Source: Phycisphaerae bacterium
GTDB taxonomy: Bacteria > Planctomycetota > Phycisphaerae > Sedimentisphaerales > Anaerobacaceae
DNA length: 64,000 nt
Assembly: GCA_030615025.1 (NCBI GenBank)
Contig: JAUXAB010000001.1
Coordinates: 62,001-126,000 of the forward strand
Reading direction: 5' to 3'
Positions 18,941 through 34,464 of this stretch are shown piece by piece. The translations under genes were made by a program, and so were the position numbers. Each line of letters starts with the position of its first letter. The first letter of the stretch is position 1. The notes under the pieces are model-generated. The model was not told the origin of the DNA. It did no database searches and worked only from the letters and a program-made list of their open reading frames with translations.

Positions 18941-19531
18941 ATGCAAGCTAACCAAAAAATTATGTTTTCACTAATCTCATCACTGCTAATTTCTCTGCCG
19001 TCGGGCTGCACGGTTACTAAAGAACCGGGAAGGTTCTCTGTTCAGCCCGGCTCTATTCAACCACCGCAGCGAAACGTCAAACAGTTGCCGAGCGCCTCTG
19101 TTGCGAAGAGATTCCAGGAATCCACCGCGCAAACCCCAACCGCAGTGGAGTCCGCGATAGAATTGTCGGGGAAATATGCCAAACTCTCCGAAGAGGCGGC
19201 TGTCCTGCGACAAGAAAAACAAGACCTTATCACCAAGAGCCGGCAGCTTAAAGACCAGGTCACCGCTCTTGACGTTCAATTGCAGCAGACGCAAAAGGAA
19301 TTAACTGAGGCAAATGACCTTATGATTGAAATGCGTATTGAGCTGAATAATTGGAAGACCAACATCCTGGGCTTTCGTGGAGAGATGCGGGACGCCGATA
19401 CAGCTCAACTGCAAGCACTGCTCAGGATACTTAATATTCTCGGCGGAGAAATCAAGGTAGAATCGGCCCAGGATGAGAATGCAAGCTCAGCCGCCGTATC
19501 GCAAGGTGAACCCGGTCAGTCTAAACTGTAG
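18941..19531 (+). CDS. Putative lipoprotein with coiled coil
   Basis: MQANQKIMFSLISSLLISLPSGCTVTK lipobox; heptad-rich SEEAAVLRQEKQDLITKSRQLKDQVTALDVQLQQTQKELTEAN. Confidence 0.65.
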   Translation: MQANQKIMFSLISSLLISLPSGCTVTKEPGRFSVQPGSIQPPQRNVKQLPSASVAKRFQESTAQTPTAVESAIELSGKYAKLSEEAAVLRQEKQDLITKSRQLKDQVTALDVQLQQTQKELTEANDLMIEMRIELNNWKTNILGFRGEMRDADTAQLQALLRILNILGGEIKVESAQDENASSAAVSQGEPGQSKL

Positions 19532-19532
19532 T

Positions 19533-19664
19533 TGACTGGTAACTGGTAAATGGTAACTGGTAAATGGTAACTGGTAACTGGTAAATGGTAACTGGTAACT
19601 GGTAACTGGTAACTGGTAACTGGTAACTGGTAACTGGTAACTGGTAACTGGTAAATGGTAAATT
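19533..19664 (+). repeat. Heptanucleotide tandem repeat (CTGGTAA/ATGGTAA), about 19 units
   Basis: GACTGGTAACTGGTAAATGGTAACTGG...; followed by a TAACCAATTACCA repeat at about 19670-19713. Confidence 0.97.
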
Positions 19665-19733
19665 CGGCCTAATAACCAATTACCAATAACCAATTACCAA
19701 TAACCAATCACCAACTTTCTTTAGGTGAAGCAA

Positions 19734-20423
19734 ATGAATAGCTTGAAAACGGTATTATCGATGATTTACAATTTACGATTCACAACATTGTTGTTGCTGC
19801 CGGTTCTTTTATCAGCCTGCCAGTACTATAGAGTTGCTGCACCGATGCCGGAGTACTATTATCTAAATCCGGATAAGGATTTGTCCACCGTTGGCAGGAC
19901 TGCTTTAGTCGAGCTGGGCAACAAATCGAGCTATCCACAAATCTCCACTGATGTAACCGAAGCGCTTTTCCAGGCATTGCAGAAGAAACAGCTTTTCGGA
20001 TTAACTATTGTCCGCCAGAGTGACCCTGCGTGGCGCAGTTTGCAGCTGGACTCGAACTCGGGTTCCCAAACGCAAAATAGTGCGTTTAGGGTCCCGTCAC
20101 CATACACCCTTGACCAATTGACCGCAATCCGCAAGACACTAAAGTGCAATGCGGTATTGATTGGAACTATTACCCAATTCAAGCCTTATCCTCATATGGC
20201 CATTGGTCTTCGTCTGAAGCTTGTGGACCTGGAGGATGGGCAATTACTGTGGGCTCTTGAGCAAATTTGGGACAGCTCCGATAAAACAACTGAGTATCGG
20301 ATAAAAAGCTATTTTCAATATCAGATGCGATCGGGGTTTGCGCCTTTGCGTGAACAGTTAGTAGCTGTTAGTCCGCTTGAGTTTATCAAGTTTGTAACTT
20401 ATGAGGTGGCCGCAACGCTATAG
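19734..20423 (+). CDS. Putative lipoprotein
   Basis: Signal ending LLLLPVLLSAC; conserved-looking C-terminal domain AVLIGTITQFKPYPHMAIGLRLKLVDLEDGQLLWALEQIWDSSD. ORF track start is 19725. Confidence 0.65.
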   Translation: MNSLKTVLSMIYNLRFTTLLLLPVLLSACQYYRVAAPMPEYYYLNPDKDLSTVGRTALVELGNKSSYPQISTDVTEALFQALQKKQLFGLTIVRQSDPAWRSLQLDSNSGSQTQNSAFRVPSPYTLDQLTAIRKTLKCNAVLIGTITQFKPYPHMAIGLRLKLVDLEDGQLLWALEQIWDSSDKTTEYRIKSYFQYQMRSGFAPLREQLVAVSPLEFIKFVTYEVAATL

Positions 20424-20508
20424 CCCAAAAGGAAAGTTCACAAACATATATTCTCGTCTAAAAAGAGCGTTGACTTTAGAAAAAAAATGAATATCCGGCA
20501 AAAAATCC

Positions 20509-20536
20509 TAAAGTTTTATCGAAAATGTGCGAAAAG
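20509..20536 (+). promoter_or_regulatory. Weak sigma-28-like promoter candidate
   Basis: TAAAGTTT -35 is exact; -10 GCGAAAAG is poor at 12-bp spacing. Upstream of the flgM-like gene. Confidence 0.25.
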
Positions 20537-20571
20537 GATAGTGGGTTAAAAATCCGCAAAGAAGTAATGCA

Positions 20572-20883
20572 ATGATAGAGAAAATAAATAACAATCAAAT
20601 TCGCGATCTTTTGGAAGAATTATCTCCCAGGCAGCCCAACTCCGGCAGTGCTGTTCCAGATAATGATACGGCGGTTCCCCGAACGCGAAAAGATGCGTTG
20701 GGGGGCCCCACGGATGTATCCGTGCAGGTTAATTATGCTTCTCTCATTGACCGGGCAATGCAGGCCTCGCAAACAGACGCCGATGTCGTAGGCGCGGCAC
20801 GGAAGCTTTTACTGTCCGGCCAACTTGAAAGTCCGGAAAACAATCGAGCAGCCGCAGAAAACATCATAAAATTTAGTATATAA
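20572..20883 (+). CDS. flgM: FlgM-like anti-sigma-28 factor
   Basis: Small ORF with C-terminal YASLIDRAMQASQTDADVVGAARKLLLSGQLESPENNRAAAENIIKFSI; context downstream of fliA. Confidence 0.6.
   Translation: MIEKINNNQIRDLLEELSPRQPNSGSAVPDNDTAVPRTRKDALGGPTDVSVQVNYASLIDRAMQASQTDADVVGAARKLLLSGQLESPENNRAAAENIIKFSI
20675..20708. repeat. Palindrome family B (GTTCCCC-AACGCGAAAAGATGCGTT-GGGG) inside the flgM-like gene
   Basis: Same core at 20061-20095, 21990-22022 and 29606-29645. Confidence 0.75.
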
Positions 20884-21083
20884 AAGCTTTAACAGAGAAA
20901 GGATTAAATCGCAAGGCCGACCACGGAGGGTCGTTACCACAGCCTGAACGGATTTTGGAAACTCGGCGAGGAAATGTGTAAACTTGGCACCCCAACGGTT
21001 ACTCATCCCTCGCCGTTCTTTTTGGTTACAACCCAGGCTATGAAAGGGATGGGAACCAAAAAATTGCACTGGCTCCCTCAAAT

Positions 21084-21554
21084 ATGGCATTGAATGTCAC
21101 AATTACGGGGAAATTCAAAAAGCTTTGGAAATATTACCTCTTGCAAAGCTTATTGGCTGCCGGTGCCCTCTTTATCCTCATCCTCATCCTGGACAAGGAC
21201 AAAATGGTCGTAATCAGCGCAATGGGCGCCACCAGTTTTATCGTATTCGCGATGCCCACCGCTGTCTCCGCACAAACAAAAAATGTCATTGGCGGTCATC
21301 TGGTTGGCTTAGCTTCTGGAGCTATATTCTACTTCACCGCCCTGCCTTATTTACTTGAGTATCCCTGCGCAGTCGGAATCGCTATCTTTCTTATGGTAGC
21401 TCTGGACGTCGAACACCCCCCAGCCGCAGGCACGGCCTTGGCCGTCGTGATAAATGAGGTCTCACCTGCCGTCTTTGTCACCATAATGACAAGCGCGCTG
21501 ATACTGTCCCAATGCCGCTATTATCTAAGACACCATTTGAAAGATTTGGTATAG
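21084..21554 (+). CDS. HPP family integral membrane protein
   Basis: Four hydrophobic segments; DKDKMVVISAMGATSFIVFAMPTAVSAQTKNVIGGHLVG and VALDVEHPPAAGTALAVV are HPP-type. Confidence 0.8.
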   Translation: MALNVTITGKFKKLWKYYLLQSLLAAGALFILILILDKDKMVVISAMGATSFIVFAMPTAVSAQTKNVIGGHLVGLASGAIFYFTALPYLLEYPCAVGIAIFLMVALDVEHPPAAGTALAVVINEVSPAVFVTIMTSALILSQCRYYLRHHLKDLV

Positions 21555-22126
21555 GCCATCTATTGGGCTCCAGGCCCTTACCCCTAAATTACAAAGCCGG
21601 GCCTCAAACGTAACAATCGAGAATTTGCCCAATCGGACTATCGTCGATAGATACTCCTGCTATGTCCAACCGGCCTGTATAGGTAACCGGAGTGCTATTG
21701 TGCCTGGCATGAATATTCACAGCAGCAGCGTCGCTAATCTTGTGGTGCTCATTACCTGGCTGTCTTACGTGCCGCAATGCGTCACTGCTTTTGCCGAGAG
21801 GCTTAGAACTAACAACTCTACATGAAATTCTCTTTACCATTTCATCACACCCTAACAAAAGCTATGTTAGCACACTCAAACAGCTAAATCAAGGAAAATC
21901 GCATCAGCCTGGGCCGCAGGCCTGAGACTTTTTATACTCACGATGAAACTGCTTGTGATAAAGCGATATTATAGGACAAGGAGAAGGAAGTTCCCCAAAC
22001 GCGAAAAGATGTATTTGGGGGGCAGGAAAATTTATGATGGATGCACATCGGGCCTGCGGCTAAAATACTTTGTGTCTAAGTTGGCCTCGAATTTCAGTAT
22101 CTGGCCCCTGAAAAAGGTCTCTGCCG

Positions 22127-22327
22127 ATGCAGATTATTGCCCAATGCCCGGGATGTGGCAGCGCCTCGTTACTCGACGGCAGCGCCGCCGACCGTCGGAT
22201 AAGATGCCGCAAGTGCCGCAGGCTATTCAAAGTCCCCAAGCTGGACGAGGTGCCGAAAGCGGTTAAGGTGATAAAGCACGCAAAGAGCACTATTTACGTG
22301 GATGAAGCCGGCAAAACCTATGGCTAA
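22127..22327 (+). CDS. Small zinc-ribbon (MJ0042-like) protein
   Basis: MQIIAQCPGCGSASLLDGSAADRRIRCRKCRRLFKVP, CxxC..CxxC pattern. Confidence 0.55.
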   Translation: MQIIAQCPGCGSASLLDGSAADRRIRCRKCRRLFKVPKLDEVPKAVKVIKHAKSTIYVDEAGKTYG

Positions 22328-22502
22328 AGCCGGCCGATACGCGCCGAACCTTCTTGTTACTCATTTATTCGCTCCGCACTCTTCCCTCACTTCATTCTTT
22401 TTGACTTTTCTACCAACTTACCGTAGATATCTCGATACTTATATATATGTAATCTTCACAAATCTCTTGCCTAAGCCACACAGGCAAATTAAACTGTCTG
22501 CC

Positions 22503-23819
22503 ATGGCAACGAGCCAGAAAGAACCGTTCGAGTTGTATGTGCGTGAGGTCGAGACCCTTGTTCAACGGCTAATTAACGACCCGAATTCGCACAGCAAGCG
22601 GTCTTCCATCAAAGCAATTCTCGATGGTCAGCCGGCTGCACGACTTCGCGATGCAATCCCGTTGGCGGCCAGACGCGATGGAGGTACCTTTTTCACCGGA
22701 AGCAGATTAGCCCGGCGACTTGTCAATCAGGGCCTTGGAGAGATTTCTTCAGATACACTGATCGCCGACATCGGATGTGGTGCAGGTGACCTTCTTCTCG
22801 CATCAGCTCGAAAGTTGCCTTTGGCTGCCGATCTCCCTGAGACATTACGTCTCTGGAGTTCGAGACTCATGGGTTTCGACATCCGCCCCGAGTTTGTCCG
22901 CGCGGCCAAGGCCAGGTTAACACTACTGGCCATTGACCGGGGCCATCGGTTCTGGAAGAAGAATGTCACCGCCGCATCCGACTGCTTCAATATGGTGCGC
23001 CAGCATGATTTCCTCTCCTGTCCGGATGCGATCGCAGACGCTTCTCACATAGTAATCAATCCCCCGTATACTCAAATGATGGCACCCGCCAACTGCGCTT
23101 GGGCAAATAGTGGGGTTTCCGCGGCAGCAGTTTTTACAGATGCTTGCGTCTCTCATGCCTCTCCCGGCACACAAGTTGCCGCAATCCTTCCCGATGTCCT
23201 TCGCTCAGGATCCAACTACGAAAAGTGGCGAAACCACATCGAATCCCAATCACAGGACCTGCGAATAACAACATTCGGCCAATTCGACAAGTGGACGGAC
23301 ATCCACGTATTTCTGCTCACATTGTCTAAGTCTAAGACTCCGAATAGCCACAAGACTCACTGGTGGAAATCGATCAAACACCCCAAAGATGGCAAAGTGT
23401 GCGACTATTTCGACGTTCACGTAGGTGCGGTTGTGCCTCATCGGCACGCTCACAAAGGACCGTCTACGGCCTATCTCCGTGCCAAGCCCCTTCCTCGCTG
23501 GACAATGGTCAAACGAATTACCGAACGCCGCAGGTTCGATGGCACTCTGTTTCAGCCACCTTTCGTCGCCGTCCGCAGAACCTCTCGGCCAGGAGACAAG
23601 CGTGCAGTCGCCACAATCATACTTGGAAAACGCCAAGTGGCTGTCGAGAATCATCTTATAGTGCTCTTGTCAAAAAATAATAAGCTTTCGGAATGTAAAA
23701 ACTTGCTCGGAGTCCTCAAATCCCGTAAAACAGACCAGTGGCTCAATAATAGAATAAGGTGCAGACACTTGACCGTCCGCTCATTGAACGAATTACCTTG
23801 GTGGAGTTTCAACAAGTGA
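22503..23819 (+). CDS. N6-adenine DNA methyltransferase
   Basis: ADIGCGAGDLLLASA motif I, HIVINPPYTQM (NPPY motif IV), TRD-like C-terminus. ATG 22503 preferred over 22302. Confidence 0.85.
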   Translation: MATSQKEPFELYVREVETLVQRLINDPNSHSKRSSIKAILDGQPAARLRDAIPLAARRDGGTFFTGSRLARRLVNQGLGEISSDTLIADIGCGAGDLLLASARKLPLAADLPETLRLWSSRLMGFDIRPEFVRAAKARLTLLAIDRGHRFWKKNVTAASDCFNMVRQHDFLSCPDAIADASHIVINPPYTQMMAPANCAWANSGVSAAAVFTDACVSHASPGTQVAAILPDVLRSGSNYEKWRNHIESQSQDLRITTFGQFDKWTDIHVFLLTLSKSKTPNSHKTHWWKSIKHPKDGKVCDYFDVHVGAVVPHRHAHKGPSTAYLRAKPLPRWTMVKRITERRRFDGTLFQPPFVAVRRTSRPGDKRAVATIILGKRQVAVENHLIVLLSKNNKLSECKNLLGVLKSRKTDQWLNNRIRCRHLTVRSLNELPWWSFNK

Positions 23820-26161
23820 AGCAACCAACCACCGAACATGAAGTATCCGTTCCCACAGAGTTGGATTCTGTTTCCTTTTCTGTGGCTGCTCGTGTAGCAA
23901 TGCAACTTGGACGCGAGAGCATTTCCAATTCGATAGTTGCAATAACAGAGTTGGTTAAGAATGCTTATGATGCGGACGCCGAGACCGTAAGAATACTTTT
24001 CTCTGGCCTGCAGAGTAATGATCCCTTTCTTGTCATCGAAGATGATGGCAATGGAATGACTGAAAAGCAGCTGCGCGAACATTGGATGGTCCTCGGAACT
24101 GCAAACAAGCAGAAGATGGGGAAATCGCCCGTCAAACATAGGGTCCTCACAGGCGAAAAAGGTCTGGGCAGATTGGGTTTGGATCGCCTCTGCAAGAAGA
24201 CTATCGCCAGATTCTTCTCAAAGAACAAGACTGATGGAGTTGAACTCGTCATTGACTGGCGAAAATATGAAAGAACAGCCCGGCGTCTTGAAGAAATTGA
24301 ACATAAATGCTACCGCATCTCAAAAACCATTAAAGACCCTATAAACGGTGTCCAAAGACACGTTGCTAAAGGAGCGCAACTGATTCTTCACGGGCTCAAA
24401 GATGCATGGACACCCGAATACTTGATGGACTTGCGAAAAGAACTCATGCTTTTGGTTTCGCCTTTCAAAAAGGTCAAGGATTTCCACATCGAAATTGACT
24501 CCGGCATGAATTGGGAGAGCGTTGACGGCCTCGTTACCTCACCAGAGATGCTCAGCGCGGCAGAGTGGAAGTTGTCCGCTAAGATTGACAGCCGCGATAA
24601 CATCACCTATGTAATGTCATCGCCAAGACATGATAGAACGTTTAAGTCTGGACGAACTCGCTGGAGTGACAAATTCCACAAGATGTGTGAAACACCACGC
24701 TGTGGCCCACTGAAATTTGAGCTCTATTTCTTCTCCAGGGACCCAGTAAATCTGCGAAATTTGGGCCTAAGAAGGCCTCAGTTGATCAAATTCCTGAAAT
24801 TCAACCAGGGCGTTCGAATCTATCGAGACCGTTTCCGGGTGAAGCCTTACGGCGAGCCAAATGGCGAAGGCGACTGGTTGAGGCTCAGCTACAGACGCCA
24901 ACAGAGCCCTGCTGGTGTTACACAAGGTGCAAAAGCAGGAGTTTGGCGGGTTGGCTACAACCAAGTCGTCGGCGCTGTTTTTCTCGAACGAGACAAGAAT
25001 ATTAACTTGATCGACCAGACGAATCGCGAAAGCATTGTTGAGGGGCCGGCTTTTTCCGATCTTAAGGCCTTTGCCGAAGACGCCGTTAGGTTCTTTGAGA
25101 TTAACCGCGAGAAATTCGAGCGTGACAAGAAGGAGACCACGGAATACGAAGAACTCCAAACGCAAGCGGAGGGATCGACTCAAGACTTGGATCATGCGAT
25201 AGATAGGCTTGAAGATGCAGCAGGCCGAATTAAGGGAATGATCGATCATGCCCAGAAGAGCAATGTTCCTCTAAAGGCGGAGGCAGTGAACTCCTTGCTC
25301 ACTGAGGCCGTGGCCAACGTCAAAAGTACGGCCGACAGCGTTAAGGAGACGCAAGAAAAGCTGGCAAAAGCGTCCAACGAAAGGGAAAAGGACTTTGAGA
25401 GACAAAAGGACACGCTTGCAAACCTAGCCTCGTTGGGCATTCTTACCGCCTCGTTCGGTCACGAAACTCTCGCAGCCTCAAATCTCGTGGCAACCAACGC
25501 GAAACAGCTTGATGAGTGCATCAAGGAGGGCCAGTTCATGCTCTTGCCTGATGTTAGTCAGAGGGTCAATGACAACCTCCTTTTCATTATGGAGGGTTCC
25601 CGGAAAATCGAAAGTTTTGCGAAGTTCGCTCTGAAGAATGTCAATCGTGACAAACGCCGACGAAAGCGTCTTTTCCTCAACAAAATAGCAAGAGATGTTT
25701 TTCGTTCATTTGAAAGCTCTCTCAAAGAAAGAAACATCAAGTCGGATCTCCACAGAGTTCCAGAGGAAGTTGCCCCGATTCAGGGTTTTCGTATCGACTG
25801 GGAAAGCATCTTTGTGAATTTCATCACTAATTCGGTCTGGGCGTTAAGAGACACACAGGCCCAAGAAAGGAAAATCAGGGTCGTTATCAAAGAGTCTGGC
25901 AAAAATCTCGTCGTTCGGTTTGCAGACAGCGGATATGGTTTGGAAGAAGGAACGTCCGACAAGATCTTCCTTCCCACGTTTTCCACAAAGAGAAACGATA
26001 AAGGTGAGATTATTGGTACTGGCATGGGCTTGGCGATTGTAAAGAGCTTTGTGGAGGACTATGATGGGGGCTCCGTTAACGTCAGTTCCCCTTGCGATTT
26101 GGGCGGAGCAGAGTTCGAAATTGCCATACCCATCCCTAACCTTTCACGGCGCAATAGATAA
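23816..26161 (+). CDS. Dual-GHKL ATPase (MORC/HSP90-like N-terminal plus histidine-kinase-like C-terminal)
   Basis: N-terminal ELVKNAYDADAETV / IEDDGNGM / GEKGLGRLGL; C-terminal FITNSVWAL / FADSGYGLEEG / FLPTFSTK / GTGMGLAIVKS; SFGHETLAASN H-box-like. GTG start overlaps the MTase TGA. Confidence 0.87.
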   Translation: MKQPTTEHEVSVPTELDSVSFSVAARVAMQLGRESISNSIVAITELVKNAYDADAETVRILFSGLQSNDPFLVIEDDGNGMTEKQLREHWMVLGTANKQKMGKSPVKHRVLTGEKGLGRLGLDRLCKKTIARFFSKNKTDGVELVIDWRKYERTARRLEEIEHKCYRISKTIKDPINGVQRHVAKGAQLILHGLKDAWTPEYLMDLRKELMLLVSPFKKVKDFHIEIDSGMNWESVDGLVTSPEMLSAAEWKLSAKIDSRDNITYVMSSPRHDRTFKSGRTRWSDKFHKMCETPRCGPLKFELYFFSRDPVNLRNLGLRRPQLIKFLKFNQGVRIYRDRFRVKPYGEPNGEGDWLRLSYRRQQSPAGVTQGAKAGVWRVGYNQVVGAVFLERDKNINLIDQTNRESIVEGPAFSDLKAFAEDAVRFFEINREKFERDKKETTEYEELQTQAEGSTQDLDHAIDRLEDAAGRIKGMIDHAQKSNVPLKAEAVNSLLTEAVANVKSTADSVKETQEKLAKASNEREKDFERQKDTLANLASLGILTASFGHETLAASNLVATNAKQLDECIKEGQFMLLPDVSQRVNDNLLFIMEGSRKIESFAKFALKNVNRDKRRRKRLFLNKIARDVFRSFESSLKERNIKSDLHRVPEEVAPIQGFRIDWESIFVNFITNSVWALRDTQAQERKIRVVIKESGKNLVVRFADSGYGLEEGTSDKIFLPTFSTKRNDKGEIIGTGMGLAIVKSFVEDYDGGSVNVSSPCDLGGAEFEIAIPIPNLSRRNR

Positions 26162-26175
26162 GGTAAGCACTTGAC

Positions 26176-26817
26176 ATGGACAAACGGATCCTCTGGTTTA
26201 TTGATGACGACGAGAGCGAATTGAAAACATATCGTCGCGAACTCCAAAGTCTCATGCCCGATGATGTCCATATCAAGGCAATCCTGCCACTTCCTAACAT
26301 GACTGATTGCTCCAGCAAAATCCTTTCCGAAAAAAACACTGCATCCATAATCATCGACGAGAAGCTCAAGAAAAAGGGGCATGCTGCATACTGGGGTATA
26401 GACCTTGCAAAGTTTCTGCGCAGCATTGATTCCAAGGTTCCTATTTACATTCTAACAAATTATGTTGATGACGAAGAATTTGAGGGTAATAAGTGGAGTG
26501 TTGAGTACATAATCGACAAAAAGGATCTCCTAGATACGAAAAAAGCTTGTGTCATCCAAGCTCGCCTTATTAGACACATGAACGTCTATAAGGACATCCT
26601 CGGAGAACGGGAGCAACGGTTCAGCGAGCTCCTCAGAAAAAGCCTCAATGACACTCTCACTTCGGATGAAATGAATGAACTCGACGAACTCGACTTCAAA
26701 CGCCAATCACCCATTCTGGCAAGCGAGCTTGAACAACTCAAGGAATTGGAGGATTTAGTGGAAAAACACAAAGATGTGATGGATCAATTTAATCAGACAT
26801 CGCCAAAGGATGAGTAA
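26176..26817 (+). CDS. Receiver-domain (REC-like) protein with coiled-coil tail
   Basis: ILWFIDDDESE, SIIIDEKL, IYILTNY and YIIDKKDL fit the acidic pair, Asp, Thr and Lys of receiver domains. Confidence 0.75.
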   Translation: MDKRILWFIDDDESELKTYRRELQSLMPDDVHIKAILPLPNMTDCSSKILSEKNTASIIIDEKLKKKGHAAYWGIDLAKFLRSIDSKVPIYILTNYVDDEEFEGNKWSVEYIIDKKDLLDTKKACVIQARLIRHMNVYKDILGEREQRFSELLRKSLNDTLTSDEMNELDELDFKRQSPILASELEQLKELEDLVEKHKDVMDQFNQTSPKDE

Positions 26818-27481
26818 GATGGCCCATGACCCCTTGTCCTTCCCGCCGATTGCTCGCAGACAGAACTACCTTACAACGCAAAGGGGTACATACTACGCCG
26901 ACTACCAGACGTACAGGCAGGAAATTAGGGAAGACTGTTTAGGCCGCTGTGTGTATTGCGACAGCCATGAAAATGAAACCGGTGGGCAAGAGTCGATGCA
27001 ACTCGATCATTTCCGGCCGAAGAAATACCCTGAGTTCGACCACCTCAAAAACGATCCCAACAATCTTGTCTGGGCTTGCTGTGGGTGCAACCGTCTGAAG
27101 TCTTCACATTGGCCAGCCCTCGGCACGCCCGATACTGTCAGCGGGGTTGAAGGATTCATAGACCCGTTTCAAGACAACCGCCGCGCATATTTCGACATAC
27201 TACCCAACGGCGAGCTACAATCTCTCAAACCTCCCGCTGGATACAAAATCAGGCTTCTTGCTCTCAATCGCCCGTTCAAGAGACGAATCCGCGAATTTCG
27301 CCAAATCCAGCAATCATGGCTAAAGCAGCTTGCCTCCGAGGCCCAGAAGATAGAGAACCTCGTAGAACACGATAAGACCCTGTCCTCCGACACCGAGCGT
27401 TCTCTTGAAGATATCGCCCTCCGGTTAAGAAGAATGCACGACAAATTAGCCGCCACTTTCCTCGACTTCAGTTTGCATTAA
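26810..27481 (+). CDS. HNH endonuclease (TIGR02646/PtuB-like style)
   Basis: GRCVYCDSHE...QLDHFRPKKYPEFDHLKNDPNNLVWACCGCNRLKSSHWP; ATG overlaps the preceding TAA. Confidence 0.87.
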   Translation: MSKMAHDPLSFPPIARRQNYLTTQRGTYYADYQTYRQEIREDCLGRCVYCDSHENETGGQESMQLDHFRPKKYPEFDHLKNDPNNLVWACCGCNRLKSSHWPALGTPDTVSGVEGFIDPFQDNRRAYFDILPNGELQSLKPPAGYKIRLLALNRPFKRRIREFRQIQQSWLKQLASEAQKIENLVEHDKTLSSDTERSLEDIALRLRRMHDKLAATFLDFSLH

Positions 27482-27775
27482 ACTATCCCCGCCCTCTGCC
27501 TTCCGCCGCCTGCCCGAATCCTAATCCCTGCATGTCGTAGGCAGGGATCCAGCAGGGATCCAGTTATTTATGACCCAAAAAAAGCACTTTTTTGGTCATT
27601 TTTTGTTGTCTTTTGTGCATTTTGTGCTTTTTCGTGGCTATCTTCTTCGTGATTCTTCGTGCCTTCGTGGTGAATATTTTTATTAAAAAAGTTCGATTTT
27701 TATTGAACATTCCGGGTGAGTTTGGTATAATACAAACAGCCATAGAAATGGCAGGTATTTCGCGGAGAACCGCAA

Positions 27776-28390
27776 GTCGTAAGCCACAGCGTGGCAAGGA
27801 CATAGAGCCAGCAGGCCAAGTCAAATATCAATAATCAGTAAGAAAGGGTTCTATTCATGCACAAGCTTTTTGAGATTCCCTCTATTACTCTGTTTCTTTG
27901 TGAATTTTGTGCATTTTTGTGGCTAAAAAATCCGCGAAATCTGCGTAATCCGCGATTAATAAACGATTTACGTGCCTATAAGGTGCTCTACAATTGTAGA
28001 GAAACATTTACAGATGTCATGAGTCCTCTACAAATCAACCTTTTTATGCAAAACAAAGCCAAATTCCGAAAAAGTCAAATGAACGTAAATAACGTATTAA
28101 CAATGGATTATGAAAAAAAAGACACTTGGTCAACGCGGGAAAAAACAAAGCCAAACAAACCCAATCAAAGCCAATTTCAAAAAGGCTAAAATGAACGTAA
28201 CGTCTTACATAACAAAGGGATATGAAAATAAACCGCCCATTCGGGCCCCGAAAAAACAAACCCAATTTCCGAAACGACAAAAACCAATGCAAACCTCTTT
28301 ACCAAAAGGGATTATGAAAAAAACCGCGCTTTCGGCCCCCGACAAAACAAACCCAAACAAACCCAATTCAAAGCCAAAACAAACTGTTTT
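27776..28390 (+). repeat. Dispersed repeat element, left copy
   Basis: About 410 bp matches in inverted orientation to 32078-32539; continues to about 28390 with extra KTNPI/FxKAKMNV-type units. Confidence 0.85.
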
Positions 28391-28391
28391 C

Positions 28392-28799
28392 TCAGCCGGC
28401 ACGGACCGTTTCTTCACGCCTTATCTGAAGAATATGCGCAATGACATCCGGCCTGCTGAGAATGCCAACTACTTTTCCTTCTTTGGATGTGACCGGGATT
28501 CTTCTGAAATAATTAATCATCATAAAATCACAAATAGTTTTCAAGCTGTCATTTTCGTTATAGTGAACTGCAGGTTGAGTCATAAAATACTGAACTGTTT
28601 TATCTTTTTCCTCTTCATCAGCGTAGAACAACCTCAGACAATCCTTCTCCGAAATAACACCCACCAAAGTCATATCATCATCAACGACAGGCATACCCGT
28701 AATTTCGTTTTTTAGCAGAAGCTCCATGGCCTCGTATATCGGGGCCTCTTTTGTTACGCTGATTACATCTTTTGTCATAACGTCTTTTGCTTTGAGCAT
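28392..28799 (-). CDS. CBS-domain pair protein
   Basis: MLKAKDVMTKDVISVTKEAPIYEAMELLLKNEITGMPVVDDDMTLVGVISEKDCLR... second CBS follows. Confidence 0.9.
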   Translation of the reverse strand: MLKAKDVMTKDVISVTKEAPIYEAMELLLKNEITGMPVVDDDMTLVGVISEKDCLRLFYADEEEKDKTVQYFMTQPAVHYNENDSLKTICDFMMINYFRRIPVTSKEGKVVGILSRPDVIAHILQIRREETVRAG

Positions 28800-28856
28800 C
28801 GTGTTTTCCCCTTTTTTAGCCCGCCGGCAGGCGGGTTTTGTGGATATCAAAATATT

Positions 28857-29264
28857 CTACGAAGACGGTGAAGGTTTCTTATGGGCTTTTTTGTCAAGAG
28901 CTTTGGGCTGGGGTTTTTTCTTGACCGGCGGTTTGGGCTCCCCCGTCCCAAGTGCCTTTTCGATTCTTGCCATTCTTGCGGAAAGCTCGGTTAATTTACG
29001 GTCAATGGAATCTAATTTTCTAACAACACTCCCCAGGTTCGTTTGAATCCTGACTAAATTCCTTTCGGTCAGGTCCATATACCGTTCCATCAGACGCTCA
29101 TAGGCATCTATGGCACGCGCAGCATCGGTCCTGTATTCTGGTATGGTAATTTGGGGGTGGACTTCATAAGTTTTTTGGCCGCCTTGAATTGATTTGGAAA
29201 ACCAAACCACCATTATGCAGGCAGCGAGGCCTGCGGCAACGGCCAATAAATTCTTGCTTCTCAT
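28857..29264 (-). CDS. Hypothetical protein, N-terminal TM plus coiled coil
   Basis: MRSKNLLAVAAGLAACIMVVWFSKSI...; alternative upstream Met at 29312. Confidence 0.6.
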   Translation of the reverse strand: MRSKNLLAVAAGLAACIMVVWFSKSIQGGQKTYEVHPQITIPEYRTDAARAIDAYERLMERYMDLTERNLVRIQTNLGSVVRKLDSIDRKLTELSARMARIEKALGTGEPKPPVKKKPQPKALDKKAHKKPSPSS

Positions 29265-29672
29265 CGGATTATCTCCTTTTTGCCTTTTTGCCCGCCCCGT
29301 TAGAGGCCCCACGGCAAAAAGCTCTAACGGGGCCCACCTTGGACGCCAGGCTATCTCTCTTTATCGGCAGAAGGCAGGCCGAATATCAAAGATTCAAAAA
29401 AAAGCCGAATTTGGAGAAAAAAAGCGTTCGAGATTCAATTAACCGGTCTTTTCACGCATTTGGCACCAAAAGAAATCTAAGTATATGGAAAAAATTCTTA
29501 AAGTACCGCGAAAAGCTATCGAAAATAATAGGGGAGAGTAAGATCGAAGACGATATGTATTGCAGAGGTATCGTTGTTATATATGGAAAATACCAAATAG
29601 TCTTCAGGGACCCCAAACGCGATAAGATGCGTTTGGGAACCCCCAAAGAGGCTAAACAATTAGGCTTGGTAA

Positions 29673-31781
29673 ATGGTGTCTACCCAAACAGAAATCGAAT
29701 CACAAGTTATAGAATTAGCAGGGAAATCATTTAAGACCTTTTGTGACGACATTTCCGGCATGTTCGGCACGGATATGGAGTGTAGCCCGCAGGCAGTGGG
29801 CACCGAAACTCTCAAAGGTCTTCAGGCACATTTTAAGGACTTGGTAGTTGTCTACTCTGTCAAGGCTGAACCCGCCAATCCGCAGGATGCCTTACGGCAA
29901 GGCGGGCTGAACGGCACTTTCCAATTAGTGTTCGACCAGAAGGGACTATTTATTCTGGCCGGTGTCGTTGCTATGCATCCCGAGCAAATGGTTCTGGAAG
30001 ACGCAAAATTCGGCTCACTCGAAAAGGCCGAGAGAGTGAGTGGCGTATTAAAAGAAGTAGGCACTGCACTCGCCGGGGCCTGGGATAGGGTCTTCCGCAA
30101 AGAATTAGATGGCCATGGCCGATTCGAACAGACTAATATTTTTATCGGAAATCCATGGGACAAATCTGAGGAAAAGATAGGCCTGGCCGGTGATGAAGAA
30201 TTGGTGTTTGTTCCATACGAGATGACAATCGGAACCTATCCGACTTTCAAGTGCGGCGTCATTCTCCCAAAAGCAATCTTTGCCGGCACATCTGAGTCGG
30301 GTGCTGAACAGGTCGCCTCTGCTGAGGAAAAAGCGCAAGTAGAAGTCGAGGAGAAAGCTCAAGAAAAAACTGAGGAAAAAGCCCAGGAAGAAACTGAAAG
30401 CAGAGCCCCGAACGTCAGTGAGGGGGTGGAAGCAACTGAACCCGAGGAAGGTGCTGCTACTGCTGAGAAAGCAAAGCCAGCAGATGAGGAAACCGTCGCT
30501 GCAGATAAAGCTGCCGTGGAGGGAGAGCCCGAAGTTGCCGCAGACCAGGAGCAGCCCACAGCTGCCAGAGAGGAGGAACCCGAAGTTGCCGCAGACCAGG
30601 AGCCCGAAGCAGCCGCAGAGCAGGTGCCCGAAGCTGCCGCGGAGGAGAAGCCAGAGGCTGCCGCGGAGGAGAAGCCAGAGGCTGCCGCGGAGCAAAAGCC
30701 CGAAGCTGCCGTAGAGCAAGAACCCAAAGCAGCCGCGGAGGGAGAGCCCGAAGCAGCCGCAGAGCAAAAGCCCGAAGCTGCCGCAGAGCAAGAGCCCAAA
30801 GCAGCCGCAGAGCAGGAGCCCGAAGCAGCCGCAGAGCAGGTGCCCGAAGCAGCCGCAGAGCAGGTGCCCGAAGCTGCCGCAGAGCAAGTGCCCGAAGCTA
30901 CCAAAGAGGAGGAGCCCGAAGCTACCGTAGAGCAAGAGCCCGAAGCAGCCGCAGAGCAGGAGCCCGAAGCTGCCGCGGAGGAGAAGCCAGAGGCTGCCGC
31001 GGAGCAAAAGCCCGAAGCTGCCAAAGAGGAGGAGCCCGGAGCAGCCGCAGAGCAGGTGCCCGAAGCTGCCGTAGAGCAAGAGCCCGAAGCTACCGTAGAG
31101 CAAGAGCCCAAAGCAGCCGCAGAGCAGGAGCCCGAAGTTGCCGCAGACCAGGAGCCCGAAGCAGCCGCAGAGCAAAAGCCCAATGATGTCGAAGAAGAAG
31201 CAACTACGATGGCTGAGACGGACAAGAGTGAAGAGCATCCGGTTTCCGAAACCATTCAAAAAATGGCCCAGTCCCCTGCTGCCCTTCCGGGTGAGCCCGC
31301 TCCATCCACAATGGCGGAAAAACCGGCGATTAGTAGTAAAGACGCATCTTCAACCGTATGCGCAAAAGACATTATGCAAAAAGATGTCATCTGGGGAAAT
31401 CCGGATGATAGCGTACAGCAGGCCCTTACAAAGATTCAGCAGCACGATGCCGGCTATATAATGATAGGCCAGGGACAGGTGCCTGAAGGTGTTGTATCAA
31501 AGTCTGATCTAACAGGAGCGCTTAGTCCCTACTTACGATCCACATTTGCTAAATGGCGTCGACCACTGGATGATGCTACGCTTCAAATCAGGATCAAATG
31601 GATAATGAGCAAACCCTCTTGCGCCATAGGGCCGGAGACGTCACTTACGGCAATAATGGAGAATATGTGCCAGGCCGGCATACGATGTTTACCCGTGGTG
31701 GACGAGCACGGCAGAGTGCAGGGCTTAGTAACGGCACTTGACATCTTTAAGGTCTTACTAAAACATTCCTATCGCAAGTAA
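29673..31781 (+). CDS. CheC/CheX-like domain, (EQEPEAAA)n linker, C-terminal CBS pair
   Basis: N-terminal VSGVLKEVGTALAGAWDRVF resembles CheC/FliM-type helices; C-terminal CAKDIMQKDVIWGNPDDSVQQALTKIQQ... CBS pair. Confidence 0.75.
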   Translation: MVSTQTEIESQVIELAGKSFKTFCDDISGMFGTDMECSPQAVGTETLKGLQAHFKDLVVVYSVKAEPANPQDALRQGGLNGTFQLVFDQKGLFILAGVVAMHPEQMVLEDAKFGSLEKAERVSGVLKEVGTALAGAWDRVFRKELDGHGRFEQTNIFIGNPWDKSEEKIGLAGDEELVFVPYEMTIGTYPTFKCGVILPKAIFAGTSESGAEQVASAEEKAQVEVEEKAQEKTEEKAQEETESRAPNVSEGVEATEPEEGAATAEKAKPADEETVAADKAAVEGEPEVAADQEQPTAAREEEPEVAADQEPEAAAEQVPEAAAEEKPEAAAEEKPEAAAEQKPEAAVEQEPKAAAEGEPEAAAEQKPEAAAEQEPKAAAEQEPEAAAEQVPEAAAEQVPEAAAEQVPEATKEEEPEATVEQEPEAAAEQEPEAAAEEKPEAAAEQKPEAAKEEEPGAAAEQVPEAAVEQEPEATVEQEPKAAAEQEPEVAADQEPEAAAEQKPNDVEEEATTMAETDKSEEHPVSETIQKMAQSPAALPGEPAPSTMAEKPAISSKDASSTVCAKDIMQKDVIWGNPDDSVQQALTKIQQHDAGYIMIGQGQVPEGVVSKSDLTGALSPYLRSTFAKWRRPLDDATLQIRIKWIMSKPSCAIGPETSLTAIMENMCQAGIRCLPVVDEHGRVQGLVTALDIFKVLLKHSYRK
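30402..30426 (+). repeat. RAPNVSEG repeat, copy 1
   Basis: AGAGCCCCGAACGTCAGTGAGGGGG; also at 47276-47300 (minus) and 59396-59419. Confidence 0.9.
30500..31190 (+). repeat. Imperfect 24-bp coding tandem repeat, (EQEPEAAA)-type
   Basis: Units such as GAGCAAGAGCCCGAAGCAGCCGCA repeated across about 0.7 kb. Confidence 0.95.
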
Positions 31782-31931: not shown

Positions 31932-32027
31932 ATGTTTATAGTTCATGTTTTCGTCCATGTTAAGCCCGACCATGTCGAAGCTTTTCGGGCCGCCACGCTT
32001 GAAAACGCCCGCAGCAGCGTCCGGTAA
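31932..32027 (+). pseudogene. Truncated antibiotic biosynthesis monooxygenase (ABM)-like gene
   Basis: ATG after [36 protein letters not shown] then repeat-element sequence. Confidence 0.65.
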
Positions 32028-32077
32028 CCAAACGACTTACGCCGGGTGTTAATCGTCATACGCAGCAGCATATTTTT

Positions 32078-32539
32078 GCCTCTGAAATTGGCTTTGATTG
32101 GGTTCGTTTTGGGTTCGTTTTGGCTTTGTTTTGGCATTTTATTGGCTTTAATTGGGTTTGTTTGGGTTCGTATTGGGTTCGTTTTGGCTTTGTTTTTCCC
32201 GCGTTCGCTAAGTGTCTCATTTTCATAATCCTTTGTTAAAACCTTATTTACGTTCATTTGACTTTTTCGGAAATTGGGTTTGTTTTGCATAAAAAGGTTG
32301 ATTTGTAGAGACTTCTCTACAAGTGTAAAGATGCCGAAGGCACGTAAGTCGTTTATTAATCGCGGATTGCGCTGATTAAACGGATTTTTTAGCCACAAAA
32401 ATGCACAAAATGCACAAAGAAACAGAGTAAAAGAGGGAATCTCAAAAAGCTTGTGCATGAATAGGGCCCTTTCTTACTGATTATTGATATTTGACTTGGC
32501 CGGCTGGCCCTAAGACCTTGCCACGCTGTGGCTTACGAC
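32078..32539 (-). repeat. Dispersed repeat element, right copy (inverted relative to 27776)
   Basis: Reverse complement gives GTCGTAAGCCACAGCGTGGCAAGG...GTAAGAAAGGGCCCTATTCATGCACAAGCTTTTTGAGATTCCCTC..., nearly identical to the left copy. Confidence 0.85.
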
Positions 32540-32812: not shown

Positions 32813-33283
32813 CTAAAATGTCCAGTTTTCTTTTTCCATAAAACCTTCAAGGTTAATGCAGGGTATCCTAAAATGATCGCAGACATTGGGGATTCTTGCT
32901 GCGTTTTTTATATTTTTTTCTTGAGTTATCACACAGGCACCAGAAATTTTTGCTCTGGCAATAACAAATGGATCAGCAACCGGTTTACCTTTGAGTCTTT
33001 CTTTTTTGTGAATCATCGCCTGAAAATGTCGTACTTGGAAAATCTTGCCTACAAATTTAAGTTCTTCAGTTGTTGACTCCAAGAATAATATTTTTTTCTG
33101 TTCTTTTGCCCAAATCGCTAGCGAATCTTCACTTGATCCAATTTCATTATAAACTTCCCTCACCGAAATAAGCTTTCCTCCAGAGACCAGAGCATCAAAC
33201 TTTTCCCACAGTGTAGGAAACCTTTCTGGGTAATAATGCCTGAATAGGTTAATAAGAGAATCGCTGTCAAAAACATATTTCAT
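32813..33283 (-). CDS. DUF4411 / PIN-like toxin
   Basis: MKYVFDSDSLINLF..., VREVYNEI, KPVADPFVIARAKISGACVITQE. Confidence 0.8.
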   Translation of the reverse strand: MKYVFDSDSLINLFRHYYPERFPTLWEKFDALVSGGKLISVREVYNEIGSSEDSLAIWAKEQKKILFLESTTEELKFVGKIFQVRHFQAMIHKKERLKGKPVADPFVIARAKISGACVITQEKNIKNAARIPNVCDHFRIPCINLEGFMEKENWTF

Positions 33284-34464
33284 GCCGTCGACCCCCCATG
33301 AAGTACATAGCCCTCGAATGTGCTCACATGTGCTTCTTTCATGCCAAGGTAATCGGCAAGCTGTGTTTTCGATATAGCGCCTTGGTAATATTTTCCAAAA
33401 GCGGTCTCAATGTAGTAAGGCCCCAAGTATGCCCCTTTAGTATAATATGGGTTACCGCCCGGACCAGGCTTACCACGCGTAAACCTCTCCTCGTTCCACT
33501 CCTTCACTTTTGCCTCATAAAATGCCTTTGTGATCTTTGTGATGTGGTTAAGATCAAGACACTTTCTTAAGATAACTTCCCGGCTAACGCTATACTTCCT
33601 GGCAAGTCGTGTCAGGAGATTGTCGTCTATGGTGTGATTGCGTATTCGAGGTTTAATATCTTCGGTAGGCACAAGAAATTCACCCGCGAATTTATTGCAG
33701 AATACTTCTACACGCTTGTTGGGGCCTCTCATTCTCTGGACAAAATCATCATGTCTTAAATCGATACCGCCGGTTTTGAAAAGAAGATGCGCCAGTTCAT
33801 GAAAGAGTGTGAATATCTGACGTATTTTTGCCTGGCTGTTATTGATATAGATTACGGGAAACACATCATCATATAGACAGAACCCGGAACATTCATCATC
33901 CTTGAAAGCATCCTTAAAGACAAAAACTCCGTGTTTTTCCAGCACATTGCGCCAATATTTCAATGCCTTATCATTTGTCGTTAGTGCATACTGTTGATTC
34001 AGCCCAACGCCTAAGTATTCCCGAACCGCTTTAGCTACATCGGAAATGGTATCTGAGCTATGTATCGTAATGTCAGAACATACTTGTTTTTTTGCAGGAT
34101 TGACCCCGTCAAATAATTCTCTGAGATTCTCTCGCATTACCTTTGCCTGACGCACCAGATAGAGTAATCTTGGCTCTAAAAGATTAATTTCTTCTTGAGG
34201 CAATGTCCGAAAAGACTCTGCAGGAGTTTCTTCTTCAGGCGGCTCAGGAAAAAAGAACAGTGCCAAAGGCCGCTTATAAATTTCATAAGCAAGCCGTTCC
34301 AGTTGAACATATGTTGGGCTGGCCGCGCCTTTTTCCCAGGATGCAACGGTTTCGGAAGTTATCCTTTTCCGTTTAAGTTTGACAACAACATCATCTATAC
34401 CAAAACCGCCGGTCTCTCTGGCCCAGCGAAGCATATCAGGATTGACGGGTAACTGTTCACTCAT
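33280..34464 (-). CDS. XRE HTH plus ImmA/IrrE metallopeptidase
   Basis: N-terminal HTH; FTLFHELAHLLFKTGG zinc peptidase motif; ATGA overlap with the toxin. Confidence 0.88.
   Translation of the reverse strand: MSEQLPVNPDMLRWARETGGFGIDDVVVKLKRKRITSETVASWEKGAASPTYVQLERLAYEIYKRPLALFFFPEPPEEETPAESFRTLPQEEINLLEPRLLYLVRQAKVMRENLRELFDGVNPAKKQVCSDITIHSSDTISDVAKAVREYLGVGLNQQYALTTNDKALKYWRNVLEKHGVFVFKDAFKDDECSGFCLYDDVFPVIYINNSQAKIRQIFTLFHELAHLLFKTGGIDLRHDDFVQRMRGPNKRVEVFCNKFAGEFLVPTEDIKPRIRNHTIDDNLLTRLARKYSVSREVILRKCLDLNHITKITKAFYEAKVKEWNEERFTRGKPGPGGNPYYTKGAYLGPYYIETAFGKYYQGAISKTQLADYLGMKEAHVSTFEGYVLHGGSTA

Follow-up and report, generated by a model that had tools for sequence, protein, structure and literature searches.

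A four-gene cassette of adenine methyltransferase, dual-GHKL kinase, receiver and HNH nuclease: a candidate restriction-like system under predicted phosphotransfer control

The stretch of DNA analysed in this work (the window) comprises 64,000 nucleotides from a Phycisphaerae bacterium of the Planctomycetota (GenBank assembly GCA_030615025.1, contig JAUXAB010000001.1, positions 62,001 to 126,000). An earlier interpretation made without database searches (the sequence-only reading) had singled out a cassette encoding an N6-adenine methyltransferase (MTase) with an NPPY motif, a dual-GHKL kinase, a receiver and an HNH nuclease, and had regarded it as one unit. Four contiguous open reading frames (ORFs) were confirmed on the + strand at 22503-27481, and both their coordinates and their domain matches agree with the four components proposed:

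22503-23819, + strand: N6-adenine DNA MTase, 438 amino acids (aa); N6_Mtase, Alw26I/Eco31I-family and M.BseCI/EcoKI M profile matches
23816-26161, + strand: dual-GHKL kinase, 781 aa, GTG start; HATPase_c_3 and HATPase_c (Pfam), structure model
26176-26817, + strand: stand-alone receiver, 213 aa; NCBIfam NF052378, structure model
26810-27481, + strand: HNH endonuclease of PtuB / TIGR02646 type, 223 aa; Pfam HNH, PtuB1, TIGR02646

The kinase GTG start (23816) shares 4 base pairs (bp) with the end of the MTase gene, 14 bp separate the kinase stop from the receiver start, and the receiver stop and HNH gene start overlap by 8 bp. In most of the loci described below the cassette genes also overlap or lie no more than ~25 bp apart. 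This spacing, together with an order kept across divergent loci, bears out the view of the cassette as one unit.

The kinase was matched by Pfam HATPase_c_3 at residues 40-163 (E=1.3e-18) and by HATPase_c at residues 663-774 (E=2.7e-18). Two halves can be distinguished in its structure model (m4932f2eb4953, mean pLDDT 78). The one at the N-terminus matches the ATPase-transducer modules of MORC3/MORC2/SMCHD1 and of the Hsp90 type (GRP94); the one at the C-terminus, with DHp helices and a catalytic ATP domain, matches HK853, ZraS and CpxA. The protein is divided into a MORC/Hsp90-type ATPase and transducer (residues ~1-430), a coiled coil, a DHp helix with the predicted phosphorylated histidine H549 (codon 25460-25462), and a histidine-kinase ATP domain (617-772). 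E45 lies four residues ahead of N49, as in hydrolysing GHKL ATPases, and N668 occupies the equivalent position in the C-terminal half, as in kinases. Invariant in all 21 representative loci are the N-terminal residues E45, N49, D76, G78, G80 and K115, and the C-terminal residues H549, E550, N668, N672 and D704 with those of GxGxG; G706 is replaced by A in one locus. As in paraMORC/MORC-type proteins, the N-terminal GHKL domain with intact ATPase motifs is followed by an S5/transducer domain. This GHKL domain is also homologous to that of the BbrUII/HgiDII restriction enzymes (NF050001, 7.1e-20), but the match spans residues 21-228 only and reaches 71 bits against a family cut-off of 550. Pfam domains, model matches and invariant residues agree in placing a MORC/MutL-type GHKL ATPase and a histidine kinase in one protein, as had been proposed.

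The receiver is recognised by the NCBIfam response regulator profile NF052378 (3.9e-11) and weakly by Pfam Response_reg (E=0.067), and its own profile matches PhoP-type receivers. Its model (m9d2ca24f32e4, pLDDT 86.5) has a (beta-alpha)5 fold, matches receiver structures, and carries a C-terminal extension of two helices (121-157 and 163-208); neither Pfam nor the structure model revealed a DNA-binding or other known output domain. The predicted phosphorylated aspartate is D61 (codon 26356-26358), accompanied by T94 and K115. D61 and K115 are present in 21/21 loci, D10 in 20/21 (one E) and T94 in 19/21 (S in two). The pair thus contains the residues expected of two-component systems, namely a DHp histidine with an acidic residue and N/G1/G2 boxes in the kinase, and Asp, Thr/Ser and Lys in the receiver. 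Judged by these residues, transfer from H549 to D61 is chemically plausible, and we consider phosphotransfer likely.

The HNH protein was matched by Pfam HNH (E=9.4e-7), by the PADLOC models PtuB1 (1.2e-13) and retron HNH_I-A (4.2e-10), and by NCBIfam TIGR02646 (3.1e-6), and its profile aligns with the solved Septu PtuB (8ee7) past the HNH core, in agreement with the PtuB-like type first suggested. The catalytic and zinc residues C47, C50, H67 (codon 27008-27010), N85, C90, C93 and N94 are retained in 21/21 loci. Effectors of the PtuB/retron I-A type are known as driven by a partner ATPase, and no DNA-recognition domain is apparent in the HNH protein. Both features would suit abortive infection by a non-specific nuclease, where the kinase responds to a phage protein or a physiological perturbation, the HNH protein destroys host DNA or nucleic acid, and the MTase is an accessory or supplies a monitored modification. 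The retention of an adenine MTase, even across families, is better explained by self-marking, and abortive infection appears to us unlikely.

The MTase has a DIGCGAGD motif I ahead of NPPY (codons 23058-23069), which is the gamma-class layout, and a C-terminal region resembling a target recognition domain. It matches Pfam N6_Mtase (E=9.2e-5) and the Alw26I/Eco31I family (NCBIfam, 2.2e-7), and its profile matches the solved structures of M.BseCI (4.3e-9) and EcoKI M (2.6e-7). D89, G93 and NPP are invariant in 17 loci, and position 189 (Y189 here) is Y or F. The protein also resembles Mad2 (PADLOC, 3.2e-13; NCBIfam, 15 bits versus a cut-off of 720 bits). The kinase-receiver-HNH trio is constant, and the MTase varies in family or position. 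The A8-family MTase lies upstream in standard loci and is convergent and downstream in L014; L013 has an Eco57I-like MTase of 668 aa upstream of the trio, L070 an M.Eco57I-like MTase downstream, and the mobile element L131 yet another MTase upstream. The complete copies checked on this point keep an adenine MTase, even if one of another family. The trio itself is probably devoid of sequence specificity. If the nuclease had its own specificity, MTase exchange would expose host sites; therefore the MTase more likely supplies recognition, and kinase, receiver and HNH nuclease more likely form a specificity-free restriction arm. By analogy with Type I or BREX-like systems, the MTase is probably also part of site recognition. 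The proposal that it marks self is retained in this amended form, in which the enzyme is not merely a self-marker.

Conservation of the cassette was assessed by a kinase scan of 85,462 species genomes, followed by a hidden Markov model screen of the fetched loci. The MTase-kinase-receiver-HNH order was found in Planctomycetota (Sedimentisphaerales, Phycisphaerales and a metagenome-assembled genome labelled Kuenenia), Chloroflexota, Verrucomicrobiota (Opitutia), Pantoea agglomerans (Gammaproteobacteria) and an unclassified bacterium; a further copy, in Kluyvera, is truncated by its contig. Eight more full cassettes, L062-L069, of which three are near-identical, came from IMG/VR contigs. So did a second subtype, in which kinase, receiver and HNH are joined by another kind of MTase, mostly on the downstream side if the contig is long enough (L070, L071, L079, L103, L130-L132). 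Receiver and HNH genes lie directly 3' of full-length kinases of the cassette branch in 21 divergent representative loci, so that co-conservation, one of the tests set by the sequence-only reading, holds. Among the fetched loci as a whole, receiver and HNH genes come immediately after each full-length dual-GHKL gene whose product has a family-profile score of at least 333, and after none of the full-length ones at 305 or less. In the kinase tree the HNH branch forms one side of a well-supported split as a single clade (99/94), with subtype A at 100/99 and subtype B at 100/100. A Chloroflexota kinase branches from within the planctomycete kinases, a pattern expected under horizontal transfer. 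The four proteins have correlated distance matrices, with r of 0.70-0.95, values reached by 0/2000 permutations (GHKL-REC 0.95, GHKL-HNH 0.93 and REC-HNH 0.86 in 21 loci; MTase-GHKL 0.88 in 16 loci).

Two near-identical prophage copies have dN (nonsynonymous divergence) at ~0.06-0.2 of dS (synonymous divergence) in all four genes, which indicates purifying selection. One degraded copy, in the Klebsiella variicola plasmid pBM374-1 (L120, record positions 127930-132799), has its kinase annotated in three pieces and is apparently decaying or frameshifted. Such a copy is what a decayed remnant would look like, but 21 divergent loci share the order with catalytic residues intact and under purifying selection. 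Chance adjacency is ruled out by the recurrence of the gene order in divergent loci, and the probability that the cassette is a set of unrelated neighbours or a remnant is negligible. The cassette is a real, recurrent system. Its DNA had no match among 5,426 E. coli genomes, and no phage record covered 80% of the kinase. A receiver scan of viral contigs gave no matches, probably owing to its single degenerate pattern; the kinase profile recovered the prophage copies.

Cassettes are carried on chromosomes, prophages, plasmids and defence islands. The prophage copies (P2-like or other) adjoin genes for integrase, excisionase, a CII-like regulator, a gpA-type replication protein, portal, terminase and tail proteins. 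The degraded Klebsiella cassette lies near the anti-phage gene ppl, and a homologue of DruE (Druantia) adjoins the L013 cassette. A kinase with a receiver is typical of signalling, and the cassette could be imagined as a regulatory two-component module acting as an epigenetic switch over the MTase or other genes, with the HNH protein serving repair or mobility. The receiver without a DNA-binding or known output domain argues against such a module, as does the HNH gene that comes next in every complete locus; the prophage carriage and the ppl and DruE neighbours point to conflict instead. We regard this explanation as very unlikely.

These observations are best accommodated by a horizontally spread restriction-like cassette, directed against phages or other mobile genetic elements and controlled by two-component phosphotransfer, an interpretation that we consider on balance probable. 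The MTase would methylate adenine in the target site, thereby marking self DNA, and would probably also recognise the site. The MORC-like ATPase half, as suggested by MORC/MutL biology (PMC2292703, PMC12137116), would clamp, engage or sense unprotected or invading DNA. Sensing would bring the C-terminal histidine kinase into a different state, leading to autophosphorylation on H549 and passage of the phosphate to receiver D61, and the phosphorylated receiver, via its helical tail, would activate or release the PtuB-like HNH protein, which would cut DNA. The four genes, the integrity of their catalytic residues, their co-inheritance, their presence on prophages and plasmids and the exchange of MTases rest on observation. 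That DNA is the signal, that phosphate passes from kinase to receiver, that receiver and HNH protein touch and that defence is the benefit are inferences. We consider a defence function of the cassette likely. Gating of the HNH protein by the receiver is a less firm but still favoured proposition; coupling between the two is suggested by genes that overlap or abut in most loci.

The same four genes could operate with the opposite sign, phosphorylation being a brake or timer that keeps the nuclease off in normal growth or until the MTase protects a new host chromosome. Stand-alone receivers without an output domain are often sinks or phosphatase partners, the kinase, receiver and HNH genes are tightly linked, and carriage on prophages and plasmids implies establishment in unmethylated hosts; all three would suit a brake. 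Strict conservation of both ATP sites and H549 is required by trigger and brake alike, and we consider the brake improbable, to about the same degree as abortive infection. Returning to phosphotransfer as the trigger, a more specific form can be put forward tentatively, with slightly less than even confidence: in the cassette, for the first time in a restriction system, His-to-Asp phosphotransfer could be what switches the nuclease, with a MORC-like ATPase reading DNA methylation or topology, a phosphorylated receiver relaying to a specificity-free HNH nuclease, and exchangeable MTases setting the target.

Several points weigh against the favoured interpretation as a restriction-like cassette under phosphotransfer control. 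All component activities are predictions from sequence, and the kinase model is only moderately confident (pTM 0.61). The agreement of the distance matrices fits joint inheritance and is no proof of contact, as simple co-inheritance predicts the same. Fusions of receiver to HNH, or of kinase to receiver, which would have pointed to contact, were absent among the fetched relatives, and the receiver could instead be a phosphate sink or a transcription regulator. The receiver family is rare, being found in 1/393 Planctomycetota, 1/301 Chloroflexota-phylum and 4/296 Enterobacterales-order sampled genomes, and the cassette of the window has housekeeping genes, instead of a defence island, around it.

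As in Type II and Type I restriction-modification (R-M) systems, the DNA MTase is encoded with a nuclease. PADLOC models recognise only the MTase, the HNH protein (as PtuB-like) and the GHKL domain (as REase_II-like); they match single proteins and not the cassette, in keeping with the earlier view that the combination is not a named system. Detocs (DtcA/DtcB/DtcC) is a defence system based on a histidine kinase and a receiver, with a receiver-fused enzyme acting on ATP as its output; it is not known to contain an MTase or HNH protein. No Detocs-named model was matched by the cassette proteins in the 2023 copy of PADLOC, which may not contain Detocs. The HNH protein is homologous to Septu PtuB and the retron I-A HNH over most of its length and shares the DHFRP...NL...C..CN..K core, but its partner is the kinase/receiver pair. 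Septu was rejected since no PtuA ABC-type ATPase lies beside the HNH gene, whose partners are kinase, receiver and MTase, and retron I-A since its set of reverse transcriptase, non-coding RNA and ATPase is absent from the four cassette genes and the flanking ORFs. MADS was also rejected, as the MTase alone resembles a member (Mad2) of the Mad1-8 set.

GHKL ATPases in R-M-type operons, invoked by the sequence-only reading, have been on record since Iyer et al. 2008 (PMC2292703), who described MORC/paraMORC ATPases there, with paraMORC1 possibly co-occurring with HNH genes. These operons likewise combine an N-terminal MORC-like GHKL and S5-type ATPase with an MTase and a nuclease, whereas in the cassette the ATPase forms one protein with a complete histidine kinase, has a receiver partner, and is accompanied by no helicase gene. 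In VcSduA (paraMORC3-Shedu, PMC12137116), where ATPase and nuclease are both required in phage defence, a MORC-like GHKL ATPase is also coupled to a nuclease, but within a single protein with a PD-(D/E)XK nuclease and no kinase, receiver or MTase. DefensePredictor (PMC13092281) names HATPase and REC domains among its unvalidated predictions.

The closest architectural precedent is that of Bellieny-Rabelo et al. 2021 (PMC8011034), where kinases with HATPase_c_3, DHp and HATPase_c were predicted to pair with response regulators as two-component-like systems in the vicinity of R-M genes. Most of those genes encode C5 MTases and Vsr, and the neighbours listed also include HNH and N6/N4 MTases. Both these HEF_HK/Response_reg_2 systems and the cassette have a soluble protein with N-terminal HATPase_c_3 and C-terminal HATPase_c beside a receiver gene, near R-M genes. 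The cassette differs by its short receiver (213 versus 340-450 aa), a PtuB-like HNH fixed in third place, and an N6-adenine MTase versus mainly C5 MTases and Vsr. The cassette kinase gave no match to HEF_HK (PF19191) at E<=1, no protein in the genome exceeded the cut-off of that model, and the receiver did not match Response_reg_2 (PF19192), leaving Response_reg as its sole Pfam match. Filing the cassette under HEF_HK/Response_reg_2 was rejected on these grounds. The longer-regulator systems lie outside the HNH clade in the tree and mostly fail both models too, so the resemblance is architectural. Numerous dual-GHKL kinases with such regulators (340-450 aa, up to 639 aa; L020-L035, L072-L112 and others) have C5 MTase, Vsr-like or N6 MTase genes nearby, and phage contigs carry several of these systems. 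By its predicted architecture, the cassette belongs to the class of paraMORC-type kinases with response regulators, where it forms a clade of its own, marked by a short receiver and a PtuB-type HNH. Our search of open-licence PMC papers found no description of this gene combination, and a subscription paper or preprint could exist. The earlier claim that the combination is not a named system stands to this extent, and its novelty is reduced by the 2021 prediction of dual-GHKL kinases with regulators beside R-M genes. With that class predicted and GHKL ATPases known in R-M operons since 2008, only the HNH/adenine-MTase subfamily looks undescribed.

The surroundings of the cassette in the window were compared with same-genus genomes by flank alignment. 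The flanks at 20000-22328 and 28384-30293 align at 79-81% to the same-genus genome G003 (L126), and the segment between them has no syntenic counterpart in same-genus genomes:

22332-28383, strand unassigned: segment without syntenic counterpart, containing the cassette

At the syntenic site of L126 the cassette is absent and a gene for a GLUG-repeat-type surface protein lies between the flanks; large genes of this type stand beside the left flank in L125, L126 and L127, all of the same genus. The cassette site is a variable locus downstream of a flagellar gene cluster. Related non-coding or pseudo-coding sequence occurs twice, at 27560-28380 and, on the opposite strand, at 31943-32458; it translates as 'MHKLFEIPS.TLFLC.FCAFLWLKNP' and 'QTNPIKAN'. 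Parts of it match the same-genus contigs L126 and L127, and it therefore has the appearance of an interspersed repeat that borders the cassette on the right. At 32813-34464 (- strand), 5 kb from the cassette, a gene for a PIN-like protein overlaps one for a helix-turn-helix and ImmA/IrrE-type peptidase (PADLOC RmrA 2e-24, capP 6e-22), a pair that is probably toxin-antitoxin or defence-related. A CBS-domain protein encoded at 29673-31781 (+ strand) has long low-complexity EPEAAAEQ/EKPEAAAE repeats and differs in length in the L126 copy. Between two predicted genes, at 19487-19693, lies a short tandem array whose - strand reads 'TSYQLPVTSYQLPFTSYQLP'.

Cutting by R-M systems is normally thought to be decided by direct recognition; in the cassette, if the proposed mechanism is true, which is conserved and mobile, a full phosphorelay of two-component type would stand between DNA sensing and the nuclease. 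Bacterial signalling would then be joined to restriction, and the cassette would allow a concrete test of what MORC/paraMORC ATPases do beside DNA methyltransferases, a role so far unexplained. It would also offer a compact four-gene model of how MORC-type ATPases read the state of DNA, for which Enterobacterial prophage versions exist.

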